NCBI GenBank assembly: GCA_950097245.1
Contig: CATNCS010000001.1
Location: 51,238-115,237, forward strand
Source of the DNA: an uncultured Oscillospiraceae bacterium
GTDB lineage: Bacteria > Bacillota > Clostridia > Oscillospirales > Oscillospiraceae
Direction of reading: 5' to 3'
Length of the DNA: 64,000 nt
This document shows positions 17,109-40,202 of the stretch, in pieces. How positions within the stretch are numbered: position 1 is the first letter of the stretch; each line of letters starts with the position of its first letter. Made by a program: the position numbers and the translations under genes. Below the pieces are notes generated by a model, which saw only the letters and a list, made by a program, of their open reading frames with translations, did no database searches and was not told where the DNA came from.

Positions 17109-17196
17109 AGTCGTTTCCTCCAATAAGTGAAGATACCGCATTACATCCGGACGGGTGTAGTGCGGTCTTAGAGGAGACGACGGCAAGATCTCTCTT

Positions 17197-17298
17197 CCAC
17201 TTCCTACGCCGGCATTACCCGGATCAGGTTCAAGGGACCGGAGACAGCTTTGTTTGTCTCTGCATCTCAGCCGGGAACTGTGCTCCCAGCGCCCCTGT
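17197..17298 (-). promoter_or_regulatory. TPP riboswitch (THI element) upstream of thiT
   Basis: Conserved core read on the minus strand: CCCGGCTGAGATGC, then ACCTGATCCGGGTAATGCCG and GCGTAGGAA. No intrinsic terminator follows. The downstream GTCGTCTCCTC is complementary to the thiT ribosome site, so control is probably translational. A -10-like TACAAT lies at 17304-17309. Confidence 0.96.
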
Positions 17299-17361
17299 GT
17301 TCGATTGTACTGCGGTTCTTTTTTATTTTAGAAGCTTTCCGGGCGTTTGTCAACCCTCTCC

Positions 17362-35585: not shown

Positions 35586-36380
35586 TCAGTCTCCCGCCCG
35601 CTGGCAGGCGACGACTACAAAGCGTCCGTTTTTGGTGTGGTAGCTGCAGGTGGACAGAACCAGGATCCGGTCCCCGTAGGCTGGCTCCACGCCGGTGTCG
35701 TAGAGGGCAAGCTTCCCAATCTGGTCGAAGTACTCCTGAAAGGCCTCCTGGTCGGGCAGCTCGGTGTACTGGTAGTACTGAAAGGTACCCGTCTCATTCA
35801 CCCGGTAAATTTTGCTGAAAAAGGCGGTGACCACCTCATACTCCCGGACCTCGTCCAGGGTGTCGAAGCGGATGACGGGGTGGGCCTGAGCGTACTCCAG
35901 GTTCTGATACTCGTCCAGGTCGCCGAACATGGAGCCGTCCTTCATGTGGTGGCCGTAGATGATGGCGTAGTCCCCGGCCGGGTCACACTTTCCGTCCAGA
36001 AACAGGGTGCCGCTGATGGCCCGCTTCTTTTCAAAGCTCCGGCGCAGGTAGTACTCCGGGTCCTCGGGGGTGTGCATGACGGGGTAGTCGATATTCGTAT
36101 CCTCAATCCACAGCCAGCCCGCCAGGTCGCTGTTCTCCTGAGCCAGGGCGGCGTACTCCGCCAGAATCAGCTCCTCCTCCGTGGGGCCCTGGGGCAGCTG
36201 CGCCCCCTCGGGCAGGGAGATGTGGATGGCGTCCCGCACCTGCTGAACCTGCCGGGCCAGCGCCTGATTGTCCGCCTTCTCCCGGTTGGAACGGAGCAGG
36301 TCCCGGGCCAGCAGTCCGGCGGAAACTGCAAACACCGCCACAAACACCAGCGTCGCCAGACGGCGCACGTTCTTTTTCAT
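35586..36380 (-). CDS. srtB: Class B sortase
   Basis: 264 residues. One N-terminal membrane anchor (residues ~7-28), then an extracellular sortase domain: IDYPVMHTPEDPEYYLRRSF, the catalytic His in YAIIYGHHMKDGSMFGDL, Cys in ILVLSTCSYHTKNGRFVVVA with Arg following the Cys in the class pattern. The insert helix before the Cys strand supports class B. It directly follows the SPQTG adhesin on the same strand, and class B sortases of C. difficile use (S/P)PxTG signals, so the adhesin is the likely substrate. AGGAGG precedes the ATG, just after a terminator. Confidence 0.95.
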   Translation of the reverse strand: MKKNVRRLATLVFVAVFAVSAGLLARDLLRSNREKADNQALARQVQQVRDAIHISLPEGAQLPQGPTEEELILAEYAALAQENSDLAGWLWIEDTNIDYPVMHTPEDPEYYLRRSFEKKRAISGTLFLDGKCDPAGDYAIIYGHHMKDGSMFGDLDEYQNLEYAQAHPVIRFDTLDEVREYEVVTAFFSKIYRVNETGTFQYYQYTELPDQEAFQEYFDQIGKLALYDTGVEPAYGDRILVLSTCSYHTKNGRFVVVACQRAGD

Positions 36381-36447: not shown

Positions 36448-39400
36448 TTACAGTTCGTCGCGCTTCTTGCCCAGCACCATGGCCAGCATCCCAAGCAGGG
36501 AGAATCCGCTCAGAGCGGCCCAGAGCGCCGTGTGGCTCCCGTCGCCGGTCTGGGGAGACTCAGCCAGAGGCACTTCCTCCTCGGGAATCTCAATCTCGGG
36601 CTCCTCGGGGAGGTTCGCCAGAGGCACTTCAGGCTCGGGAACATCTACCGTAGGATCCTCGGGGGGATTCTCGGGGGGCGGATTGTCGGGCTCGTCGTCG
36701 TCGTCATCGTCGTCGTCGCCACCGGGCTCATCGCGAACGGGGGTGGAGGTGTACTTGTTGTTGAAGGTCATCTTGTCATCACCAAGTTCACTCAAGACCT
36801 CATCACCGTTCTTGTCATAAGTCACTTTATAGATGACCATCTTTGCGGTCACCCTAGTACCTGTAATAGGCTCGCCCTTTCCGATCTCGAACTTATCCTC
36901 GATGTCATCCTTGCTGACAGTGACAACTACCTTGTACTTGGTCCCATCATAAATGATGTTCTCAGCACCGTCGTTGACCTCTGTGATATAGAACTCGTGG
37001 TCGCCCGTTTCCTTATCAAGGAAATAGCCCTCGGGGAACTTGATGACGATATCGCCATCAGCATTGTTGGTACCCGTGTAAATCGGATTGCCCGCTTTGT
37101 CCGTCAGGACAAATTTGAACTCGCCGTCCTTCAGGTCGCGGTCAGGAGTGGCCGCGGGGGCGTTCTCGTCCTTGGTCAGGGTCTTTGTTCCTTCGGGATC
37201 GTCCGGGTCATCGTACTCGAACACGTCCTCACCGATAATCAGCAGGCCGTTGTTGGCGATGCCGCCGCCGTGAGTCTTGGAGTAGTTGCCTTCGATCCAG
37301 ACGCCGCCAGTCGCAGCCCTAGCTGCGGCCTTAGCGGCTTCAATCGTCTCGGCATCGGGCTCCGCAGTTACGCCCAGCAGCCTGTCGGCATAGACAAGGT
37401 TTCCATCCTCATCCTTGGTAACCTGAACACAAGCTACCTTGCCATTGACAGTCTCCAGGTTACCCTTCTCATCATAGATGAACTTCCAGCCGACCCAGTT
37501 GGCGTCGCCACCGCCCAGCATTTGAGGACCAATAACAACGCCGGGTTTGCCATACTCGTTTGTTGACCAATCCGTCTGCTTGGCATCGCTGGCAGTGAAA
37601 ATATCCTGAGCGCCGTCCTTGAAGCCCTGGTTGTCCTTCCACAAGTCGTTTCCGTCGATCTTGGTTCCGTTCCCGTTATAGCCTTTGGAAGCAGCTTCGC
37701 CGTTGGCAGTATTCTCCCAGATGGCCGCACCGTTCTTGACATAAACGACAGTTTTGCCGTGGACACAGGCAGCCAGACCACCGCCCAGACCATCGGCCTT
37801 GTTGTCGGTGATGATGGCATTGTAGAGCTTCAGTTCACCGCCATTCTCAATGTAAATGCCGCCGCCACCAAGGTCACGCTCAGTGAGGGTCACATTATTG
37901 AGAATATGGCCGGCGGTGATGGTACCCTTGCCTTGGATATAGATGCCGCCGCCTTCACCGATATTGGCAGTGTTTCCAAGAACAGTACCGTCACTCATGT
38001 TGAAGGTGCCGTTGGGGAGCTTAATACTCCAGTCCTGCACCTTGCCATCATAGTATCTGGGCGAATCTGCGCCCTCGGTGAAGATGCCGCCACCTTCATC
38101 GGCAGTGTTGCCGGAGATGGTGCCTCCGTTCAAATTGAACCCAGCGCCATGACCAACATACACGCCGCCGCCCTGACCGATGGGTTCATTCTGACTGTTG
38201 GGGTTGCCGGTATCAGCGTGGTTATTGGAAATTGTACCGCCAGTCATGTTGAAGGTACTGTGTCCCGCGAATTTACCACTGTCATAGTAGTCCTTGACAG
38301 CTACGCCGCCGCCGTTTCCGCCGATCGCGCTGTTGTTGGTAATGGTACCGCCGGACATGTTAAAGGTACCGCCCTCTACCAGCACGCCGCCGCCGTCAGC
38401 CTCGTAGTGTTTATCCTTGTACATGTAATCTTTGACAGTATTGCCGGAAATTTCGCCGTCCTTCATATTGAAGGTACTGTCTTTGCCGACATATACACCG
38501 CCGCCGTTTGAACCTGTCGTATTACCAGAAATGGTACCGCCCTCCATAGTGAAGGAGCTGCCATTCTGGAGATAGACACCAGTGGTGCCACCAGTGATTG
38601 TACCACCGCCTTTGCTGTCATTCAGGGTCAGGTTACCTGAGTCTACCTTGACAACATTGTCCTTTCCGTTACCTGTCACGCTGTGTCCAAACAGGTCCAG
38701 GATGATTTTTCCGCCGGACGGGGTATTACCAATGGTAATGCTTCCGGCCTTGTCAGAGCTGCTGTGCGTGACATCATCTCTGAGCTGGATATAACGATCT
38801 GTGACATCGTTGTCACCTTTGACATCCCAGGTAACGATACTGTAGGTCCACTTACCGTCTTCGTCCTGAGTCCAGCCGTAGCCGTACTGCGTGTTGCCGT
38901 CAATATTGCCCACTACGCTTCCGTTTTCGGGCTTCTTGGGCTCCTCAGGGGTCTTCACTTCAGGAACCTCAGGCTGATCGCCTTCAGCGGGCTGGCCACC
39001 GGCGGGATTCTCACCATTGCCTTCGTTGGACTCGGTGTCCGCAGGAGTCTCAGAGGGCTCCACAGGGGGCTCGGTGTCCGCAGGGGGCTCGGTGTCTTCG
39101 GGCTCGGTGGGTTCGGTGCCTTCGCCATTGCCATCCTCGCTGGTGGTGTTGTCGTTGTTGACCTCGCCGCCTTCGGTGCCCTGAGTACCATCAGAGGTTT
39201 CAGAACCCTCAGTGGGAGTACCGGCGGTCTCACCGGAGTTGTCGGTATTGCTGGAGTCACCGGAGTCGGCACCGTCAGTGGAGCCGGACTGGTCAGACTC
39301 GCCGGGAGTGCTGGGCTCACTGGGAGCGCTGGAGTCGTCGCTGCCGCCATCGGGCTCAGGATCGGGCTCGGGTGTCTTGTCGGCCGGGAGGCTATCCGCA

Positions 39401-39546
39401 GGGGCACTCACCTCGGGCTTATCACTGCCGTCAATGGCCGCCTGCAGGTCGTCAAACGAAGCCGCAAAGACGTAGGAGCAGGTCATAGACGCGACCACAG
39501 TTAAGGCAAGTAATCGTGCCAAACATTTTTTCAATGTTTTTCTCAT
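36448..39546 (-). CDS. Large sortase-anchored surface adhesin (beta-helix plus pilin-like domain, SPQTG)
   Basis: 1032 residues from ATG 39546 after AAAGGAAG; the ORF track start runs back through the riboswitches. An export signal (MRKTLKKCLARLLALTVVAS) is followed by a ~150-residue Pro/Glu/Ser/Thr-rich low-complexity stalk. Residues ~230-600 hold many TFNMSGGTISNN / GGGVYVG-type repeats that fold as a right-handed beta-helix. A Spy0128/FctA-like pilin domain follows near residues 790-930 (FKFVLTDKAGNPIYTGT, ending KMTFNNKYT). Then comes an acidic/Pro region and the sorting signal ESPQTGD, membrane helix and KKRDEL. It is expressed under three c-di-GMP riboswitches and anchored most likely by the adjacent SrtB. 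Binding target unknown. Confidence 0.93.
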   Translation of the reverse strand: MRKTLKKCLARLLALTVVASMTCSYVFAASFDDLQAAIDGSDKPEVSAPADSLPADKTPEPDPEPDGGSDDSSAPSEPSTPGESDQSGSTDGADSGDSSNTDNSGETAGTPTEGSETSDGTQGTEGGEVNNDNTTSEDGNGEGTEPTEPEDTEPPADTEPPVEPSETPADTESNEGNGENPAGGQPAEGDQPEVPEVKTPEEPKKPENGSVVGNIDGNTQYGYGWTQDEDGKWTYSIVTWDVKGDNDVTDRYIQLRDDVTHSSSDKAGSITIGNTPSGGKIILDLFGHSVTGNGKDNVVKVDSGNLTLNDSKGGGTITGGTTGVYLQNGSSFTMEGGTISGNTTGSNGGGVYVGKDSTFNMKDGEISGNTVKDYMYKDKHYEADGGGVLVEGGTFNMSGGTITNNSAIGGNGGGVAVKDYYDSGKFAGHSTFNMTGGTISNNHADTGNPNSQNEPIGQGGGVYVGHGAGFNLNGGTISGNTADEGGGIFTEGADSPRYYDGKVQDWSIKLPNGTFNMSDGTVLGNTANIGEGGGIYIQGKGTITAGHILNNVTLTERDLGGGGIYIENGGELKLYNAIITDNKADGLGGGLAACVHGKTVVYVKNGAAIWENTANGEAASKGYNGNGTKIDGNDLWKDNQGFKDGAQDIFTASDAKQTDWSTNEYGKPGVVIGPQMLGGGDANWVGWKFIYDEKGNLETVNGKVACVQVTKDEDGNLVYADRLLGVTAEPDAETIEAAKAAARAATGGVWIEGNYSKTHGGGIANNGLLIIGEDVFEYDDPDDPEGTKTLTKDENAPAATPDRDLKDGEFKFVLTDKAGNPIYTGTNNADGDIVIKFPEGYFLDKETGDHEFYITEVNDGAENIIYDGTKYKVVVTVSKDDIEDKFEIGKGEPITGTRVTAKMVIYKVTYDKNGDEVLSELGDDKMTFNNKYTSTPVRDEPGGDDDDDDDDEPDNPPPENPPEDPTVDVPEPEVPLANLPEEPEIEIPEEEVPLAESPQTGDGSHTALWAALSGFSLLGMLAMVLGKKRDEL

Positions 39547-39588
39547 ATTTATCTTCCTTTCTTTGCAAATTGTCGGATGCAAAGTATC

Positions 39589-39668
39589 CGGCGGCCGGGC
39601 TGGCATTGTGCTGAGCACGTTAGCCCCCATAGCTTTGCGTCCCGTCATTTCTGGCGGTTTGCTAATCA
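39589..39668 (-). promoter_or_regulatory. c-di-GMP-I (GEMM) riboswitch 3, gene-proximal, G20A-like variant
   Basis: Minus strand: TTAGCAAACC, GAAA loop, GGGACGCAAAGCTATGGG, CTAA, then AATGCCAGCCCGGCCGCC, the conserved GEMM core and P3. By my alignment to the Vc2 aptamer the base before GCAAACC is the ligand-contacting G20; here it is A, whereas copies 1 and 2 have G. Confidence 0.9.
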
Positions 39669-39672
39669 TAAT

Positions 39673-39752
39673 CAGTAGCCGGGCGGTCATGGCCGGTGCG
39701 GCTTTAGACCCCATAGCTTTGCGTCGCGAGGTTTCCCCCGGTTTGCCTTTAT
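39673..39752 (-). promoter_or_regulatory. c-di-GMP-I (GEMM) riboswitch 2
   Basis: AAAGGCAAACC, GGGGGAAACCTC hairpin, GCGACGCAAAGCTATGGG, CTAA, then CATGACCGCCCGGCTAC. Compact form, butting directly onto copies 1 and 3. Confidence 0.93.
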
Positions 39753-39756
39753 GATT

Positions 39757-39905
39757 AGCAGCCAGGCTAACATAGCTGTCCGGAGCACGGCCTGCTATGG
39801 CCTGCTCCTCCTCCGCGAACATGACCCGCACATGGGCCATCAGAGGTTCGCCTTAGTCCCTATAGCTTTGCGTCCCAGAATTTCTTCTGGTTTGCCAAAG
39901 TGTCA
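39757..39905 (-). promoter_or_regulatory. c-di-GMP-I (GEMM) riboswitch 1 with extended P3
   Basis: TTTGGCAAACC, AGAAGAAATTCT hairpin, GGGACGCAAAGCTATAGGG, CTAA, then a long P3 arm before TATGTTAGCCTGGCTGC. About 70 nt longer than copies 2 and 3. Confidence 0.9.
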
Positions 39906-40167
39906 TAGTGTTCAGCGCGGTTATCCTGCCCGTGCCTGATTTCCGCTGTCCCTGACATGCGAAGACAGCGGAGCTACCGCCACGGCGGCGTCGCCTGAGC
40001 ATCCATTGGCCCCACCTCCTTACCTGGCCAGTCCGCGGGCCCAAAAGCCTCGCGGACGCATCCCCTCCCCCGTCTCCGGGGGTACGACGCTTCCCCTCAT
40101 ATCCAAGGATATGAGTAATGCCTCCATCCAGTGAGGAAACTCCTATTCCGCAGCCGATATTGAGGCA
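39906..40167 (-). other. Structured 5' part of the adhesin leader, RNA class unknown
   Basis: About 260 nt between the promoter and the first riboswitch. Contains stable hairpins (CATATCCTTGGATATG, CCCCCGGAGACGGGGG, GTCCGCGAGG...CCGCGGAC, CCGCTGTCT...GGGACAGCGG) and a 10-codon ORF with AAGGAGGTGGGGCCA before ATG (MDAQATPPWR). I recognise no known family. Confidence 0.5.
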
Positions 40168-40173
40168 CGTTAA

Positions 40174-40202
40174 ATTATACCACTACTCGCCGAAGAATTC
40201 AA
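40174..40202 (-). promoter_or_regulatory. Promoter of the adhesin transcript
   Basis: Minus strand TTGAAT, 17 bp, TATAAT. Predicted start near 40167 gives a ~620-nt leader. Confidence 0.75.

Follow-up and report, generated by a model that had tools for sequence, protein, structure and literature searches.

Upstream of a surface protein gene in a 64,000-nucleotide stretch of an uncultured Oscillospiraceae genome (hereafter the window) lie three copies of a c-di-GMP-I (GEMM-I) riboswitch aptamer. A sequence-only reading of the window had noted that the base preceding GCAAACC is G, G and A in copies 1, 2 and 3, had equated the A of the gene-proximal copy with ligand-contacting G20 of the Vc2 aptamer, and had proposed that one leader might then read two cyclic dinucleotides. 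The locus thus raises the question of what an altered ligand-contact base does in the last aptamer of an array. Here we show that the three aptamers are complete and leave no room between them for platforms, that the last one carries A at a ligand-contact position, and that both the layout and the bias recur in more than 100 sister leaders.

Three abutting aptamers precede one surface protein gene

All three copies exceed the RF01051 gathering threshold of 35 bits, with scores of 57.7, 69.2 and 62.6 bits for copies 1, 2 and 3, and the P3 arm of copy 1 spans 73 nt, as compared with 8 nt in the consensus (Table 1). Neighbouring aptamers overlap by 3–4 nt in model coordinates, and there is therefore no separate platform per aptamer. 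The first whole-window scans did not report copy 3, apparently as a result of its 3-nt overlap with copy 2 and of the filter that drops overlapping matches within a clan; it did appear in a genome search. Scanned alone with cmscan, copy 3 matches RF01051 at 39587–39673 on the minus strand with 62.6 bits against the cutoff of 35 and an E value of 1.1e-12.

Table 1. Features of the leader and of the genes that follow it, in window coordinates
Feature	Position	Strand	Basis
TATAAT-like −10 element, inferred leader promoter	40174..40179	minus	sequence; several sister arrays preceded by similar boxes
Short leader ORF with Shine-Dalgarno, MDAQATPPWR-stop	39974..40006	minus	sequence and sister leaders
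Hairpin after leader ORF (UCCGCUGUC/GACAGCGGA)	39942..39972	minus	sequence; equivalents in sister leaders
Aptamer copy 1, c-di-GMP-I, G20 = 39896, extended P3	39754..39906	minus	RF01051, 57.7 bits
Aptamer copy 2, c-di-GMP-I, G20 = 39747, A17 and A18 retained	39671..39757	minus	RF01051, 69.2 bits
Aptamer copy 3, c-di-GMP-I, A at G20 position	39587..39673	minus	RF01051, 62.6 bits
A at Vc2 G20 / 4YAZ A14 equivalent (RF01051 position 11)	39663	minus	model alignment and structure numbering
U at A18 equivalent (RF01051 position 9), second altered ligand contact in copy 3	39665	minus	model alignment
C92 equivalent of copy 3, retained	39591	minus	model alignment
Platform hairpin S1, CGGAU-A-CUUUGC-AUCCG	39574..39590	minus	sequence; begins where P1 3′ strand would be
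GCAAAG, complement of S1 loop CUUUGC, abuts Shine-Dalgarno	39561..39566	minus	sequence
Shine-Dalgarno AAAGGAAG	39553..39560	minus	sequence
Secreted surface protein, 1032 aa, FctA domain (PF12892), C-terminal SPQTGD sortase-like motif	36448..39546	minus	
Sortase (PF04203), downstream of surface protein gene	35586..36380	minus	

A PPW-like leader ORF, defined as preceded by a Shine-Dalgarno sequence and containing the motif P[PA][WGRC], is present in 53 of the 117 sister leaders listed versus 12 of 418 control windows. It may encode a stalling peptide or else be an element of RNA structure that happens to look like an ORF. The peptides of the sister leaders include MKEQMIPPW, MSGTIPPWS and MTDLVPPWA, each followed by a hairpin and then by the array. 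A search of the leader against plasmids gave no match. An ORF of 1130 aa starting at 39840 (36448–39840, minus strand) takes in copies 2 and 3 and shares the frame of the adhesin; we judged it a chance reading frame because a strong Shine-Dalgarno and a signal peptide begin at 39546, and a gene caller could annotate a wrong start for the adhesin here. Elsewhere in the window there is a TPP riboswitch (17184–17306, minus strand, 64 bits).

The gene-proximal aptamer is altered at a ligand-contact position

Read on the minus strand, the base before GCAAACC is G39896 in copy 1 (ACTTT-G-GCAAACC), G39747 in copy 2 (ATAAA-G-GCAAACC) and A39663 in copy 3 (GATT-A-GCAAACC), confirming the G, G, A order first noted. 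In the alignment to RF01051, A39663 occupies model position 11 and immediately precedes the G-C pair that closes P2. This position corresponds to Vc2 G20, since P2 of Vc2 starts at G21, and to A14 of the cGAMP riboswitch structure 4YAZ, in which J1/2 comprises A9–A14 and P2 begins at C15 (PMC6274999). The equivalence to G20 is therefore borne out by a structure-based alignment: A39663 is the last base before P2 and lies at the ligand-contact position rather than outside it, and G20 had been rightly identified as a ligand contact. Copy 3 further contains a C-A mismatch in P2, while A47, C92 (partly fixed by the search pattern) and the core of P2 are kept.

The layout recurs in gut Oscillospiraceae and Lachnospiraceae

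Matches to RF01051 are present in 21 of the 64 genomes of the genus, many of them in tandem arrays, and the same terminal platform (CCGGA-N-CUUUGCRUCC-N-GCAAAGARAGG) was found in all 20 arrays inspected. Scanning GTDB contigs with the platform pattern yielded at least 119 stretches; among the platform matches listed (130), 102 contain at least two recognisable aptamers and make up the array set analysed below. The records of the platform stretches listed mostly name an Oscillospiraceae or a Lachnospiraceae bacterium, and the taxa among them include Oscillibacter, Flintibacter muris, Lawsonibacter, Pseudoflavonifractor, Acetatifactor muris and Parablautia intestinalis. The spacing from first to second copy is 73–104 nt in most sister arrays listed, and the targets are secreted proteins, many with a PxTG-TM-basic tail. 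These leaders form a family in which c-di-GMP-I aptamers are arrayed head to tail on one shared platform; the genes that follow, in gut Oscillospiraceae and Lachnospiraceae, code for secreted proteins, often with a sortase motif. The copy-3 type AUUA-GCAAACC is present in records of both families, with differing P2 sequences.

Several sister leaders vary this layout. An orthologous leader (L035, G025:C259) has two copies only, the second of which joins the upstream sequence of copy 2, including G20, to the body of copy 3, the result of either a deletion or an assembly collapse. Terminal aptamers frequently have an enlarged P3, as in L071, L074, L076 and L077, the extension measuring about 60 to 130 nt or more and containing additional hairpins. 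In the last copies of seven leaders (L044, L078, L122, L139, L170, L189 and L201), all with A20, a base of P2 is changed to the GU/AC type (GTAAACC...GACACAAAG).

The shared platform may act on translation

The platform of the sister arrays reads CGGAY..CUUUGC-RUCCG..GCAAAG-SD, and the start codon typically lies about 9 nt after AGG. Specifically, hairpin S1 (CGGAY-N-CUUUGC-RUCCG) begins at the base that follows C92, where the 3′ strand of P1 would lie. The fifth pair of S1 is U-A, U-G or C-G in the leaders listed and covaries, C occurring with G at 17:3 and U with G at 34:69 (Fisher p 2.5e-5, relatedness ignored). The S1 loop CUUUGC and the GCAAAG that touches the Shine-Dalgarno would form an H-type pseudoknot. 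The two partners are invariant because the platform search pattern fixed both; they are also present in 20 of 20 arrays found independently through RF01051.

When the last aptamer of the window array is held in folding, CUUUGC shifts from the aptamer core (0.95 unconstrained) to the stem on the Shine-Dalgarno side (0.94). Thermodynamic folding left the accessibility of the Shine-Dalgarno unchanged, from 0.70 to 0.71 with the last aptamer constrained, so that it is hidden in neither state, and occlusion of the Shine-Dalgarno in constrained folding was dropped. An anti-aptamer strand, in which CUUUGCRUCC is complementary to the core GGACGCAAAG, reaches 0.95 in the window and a median of 0.08 over the 124 leaders listed; it was not kept as a general mechanism because of this median and because the match is lost in GU/AC-type last copies. 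By inspection, single-copy relatives appear to rely on P1 competition, with AUUUCG/CGAAAU around the Shine-Dalgarno, an arrangement that would make them ON with ligand. These relatives and the adhesin-type targets suggest that the array, too, would be ON with c-di-GMP.

Base 20 depends on the place in the array

Among the 102 listed arrays, base 20 is G in 100 first copies and A in 2. Middle copies have G in 29, A in 10 and C in 2 cases, and last copies A in 46, G in 40, C in 15 and T in 1. The first copy has G and the last a base other than G in 62 listed arrays, and the reverse holds in 2 (Fisher p 5e-22 for base 20 versus array position, a value inflated by relatedness). First copies of listed arrays keep G20 in 98% while positions 17–19 vary freely; A18 is present in 12 of these 102 copies and positions 17 and 18 are non-consensus in most, so that the binding mode of the family may differ from that of Vc2. 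At the level of the order, a strict P2 pattern gave about 15 hairpin-forming matches with A and about 52 with G in 295 genomes, non-hairpin matches having been removed by eye. A20 by itself is ordinary in the order; its restriction to non-first array copies is the unusual part. A18 is kept in 9 of the 15 order-level A20 aptamers versus 3 of the 46 A20 last copies of listed arrays. Among the last copies of listed arrays, base 91 is A in 30 of the 40 with G20 and in no others, and every copy with A20, C20 or T20 has G91; a contact between bases 91 and 20 is possible, and covariation is not claimed, the independent supported pairs numbering 4.

These counts bear on two alternatives. The terminal copy may be blind to ligand and act as a structural adaptor, preserving P2/P3 docking and relaying the state of the upstream G20 copies, an explanation we find doubtful but worth weighing. 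Position 20 would then be free to be A, C or G, and A, C, T and G all occur there in listed last copies; positions 20 and 18 are both altered in copy 3, alongside the C-A mismatch in P2, and base 20 is near-invariant in first copies even though positions 17–19 vary. However, base 20 is clustered on the tree of last copies rather than scattered, needing 10 changes where shuffles need at least 25, which indicates that it is inherited in blocks. The AUUA-GCAAACC type is moreover maintained across two families, and A47, C92 (with the caveat of the search pattern) and the P2 core remain.

Inheritance in blocks leads to the other alternative, phylogenetic inertia, in which one old A20 copy was duplicated and spread with the leaders and the base has no function; we regard it as unlikely. 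In keeping with inertia, first and last copies fall for the most part into different lineages, base 20 and array position need 25 changes each on the tree of all units, and the chimera of copies 2 and 3 carries G20. Because of this separation of lineages, phylogeny-aware tests are low in power, and the supported-branch pair test of base 20 versus array position over all units comprised just 5 pairs. Inertia is nevertheless opposed by the retention of A20 in most of the copy-3 clade (31 of 38, in both families) and of G20 in 100 of 102 first copies (listed arrays) while neighbouring positions vary, and by C20, which arises at several separate places on the last-copy tree. The maintenance of A20 in the copy-3 clade and of G20 in first copies stands.

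Copy 3 is probably better explained by relaxed or weakened c-di-GMP sensing than by cGAMP sensing

The suggestion that G20A marks cGAMP-responsive or relaxed aptamers is consistent with natural A20 aptamers binding c-AMP-GMP better; specifically, aptamer 3 of D. acetoxidans showed improved affinity for c-AMP-GMP and a perhaps slightly lower one for c-di-GMP (PMC9481103). Copy 3 shares the A at the G20 position with cGAMP-sensing GEMM-Ib aptamers but has U39665 in place of A18, and the A18 equivalent of 4YAZ, A12, is a near-permanent ligand contact in simulations of the cGAMP riboswitch. The closing pair of P2 is G-C in copy 3 versus C15-G40 in 4YAZ, which is one representative and not a class rule.

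Hypr enzymes combine Ser348 with GGDEF, and GTP specificity is driven by Asp (PMC6456294). The genome encodes four GGDEF domains, three with GGEEF and one with GGDEF, and each has Asp at the Hypr position, as do 29 of 29 readable GGDEF domains in ten genomes. A SMODS synthase (PF18144) was not found in eleven genomes, namely this one (95.6% complete) and ten relatives, and the DncV model PF21654 matched neither here nor in control genomes, so that this negative carries no weight. The search for a cGAMP synthase that the sequence-only reading had called for thus found neither a Hypr-type GGDEF nor a SMODS CD-NTase in this 95.6% complete genome. With Asp in all four GGDEFs, no SMODS CD-NTase found and U at A18 of copy 3, the two-messenger proposal is weak, and with C20 in sister arrays as well we find it unsupported. 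cGAMP sensing retains some small probability because the synthase may be unrecognised, the genome has gaps and the ligand may be external.

A two-input device, with c-di-GMP sensed by copies 1 and 2 and 3′,3′-cGAMP by copy 3, is thus highly unlikely: A20 is the change linked to c-AMP-GMP, A and C would on chemical reasoning each offer an amino donor and a ring-N acceptor fitting the adenine Hoogsteen edge, and C92 is retained for guanine, but the enzymes, the lost A18, the C in slot 20 of 15 listed sister arrays, which a cGAMP-specific reading does not predict, and, judged by the one representative 4YAZ, the G-C closing pair of P2 count against it. We give as little credence to the broader form, a natural one-platform RNA device of gut Firmicutes that integrates two messengers, c-di-GMP being read by its first aptamer and another cyclic dinucleotide by its terminal A20/C20 aptamer; that this dinucleotide would be 3′,3′-cGAMP from an unrecognised enzyme or from outside seems equally remote. 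Taken together, the enzymes, the U at A18, the rarity of A18 in A20 last copies as compared with order-level A20 aptamers, and the D. acetoxidans aptamer speak for c-di-GMP sensing that is relaxed or weakened rather than for a sensor dedicated to cGAMP, and a relaxed aptamer is possible.

A model of the array

We hold with moderate confidence that the array senses c-di-GMP and that its terminal copy, in which the ligand contacts are relaxed or weakened, links the aptamers to one translational platform. The three close-packed aptamers would sense c-di-GMP, the upstream G20 copies serving as tight sensors. The terminal copy, altered at positions 20 and 18, would bind c-di-GMP more weakly or less selectively, which we propose sets a second threshold. 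It would pass its bound state to S1, which starts after C92 where P1 would be, and the S1 loop CUUUGC would in turn pair with the GCAAAG touching the Shine-Dalgarno.

Comparison with known systems

The prevailing view of tandem c-di-GMP riboswitches is that equivalent units are stacked to make a single response sharper. More than 100 leaders share another design: the aptamers abut, there is one platform, and copies differ according to position at the nucleotide governing which ligand is chosen. The division of work between the copies of a multi-aptamer RNA becomes directly testable, and the leaders point to a large set of surface proteins of gut Oscillospiraceae and Lachnospiraceae that are candidates for control by c-di-GMP.

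All copies of the window array are full-length members of RF01051 of the Vc2 type, above the gathering score and with the GNRA-loop P2, A47 and C92 kept, whereas copy 3 differs from Vc2 by A20, U18, the lack of a P1 of its own and the shared platform. With the c-AMP-GMP (GEMM-Ib) aptamers, represented by Geobacter 4YAZ and the A-type aptamers of D. acetoxidans, copy 3 has in common the A at the G20 position and the G before C92. However, 4YAZ retains A11/A12 and closes P2 with C15-G40, where copy 3 has U at the place of A12 and a G-C pair, and the A-type and G-type aptamers of D. acetoxidans reside in separate leaders (PMC9481103), while here they share one. As in C. difficile sortase substrates such as CD2831, a sortase-anchored surface protein would come under c-di-GMP riboswitch control, but organism and gene differ, and the present leaders use class I arrays and a translation-side platform.

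Several c-di-GMP-I aptamers likewise lie upstream of one gene in the triple-tandem Bc3-5 of Bacillus thuringiensis (PMC4759541) and in 347 doublets and 12 triplets (PMC9481103). Those tandems are catalogued as sets of complete riboswitches with several expression platforms, whereas the aptamers described here abut, share one platform and differ at position 20; the copies of the window array do not each have an expression platform of their own, as Bc3-5-type aptamers do. What is new is a family in which close-packed aptamers share a single platform and the ligand-contact base depends on the place of the copy in the array.
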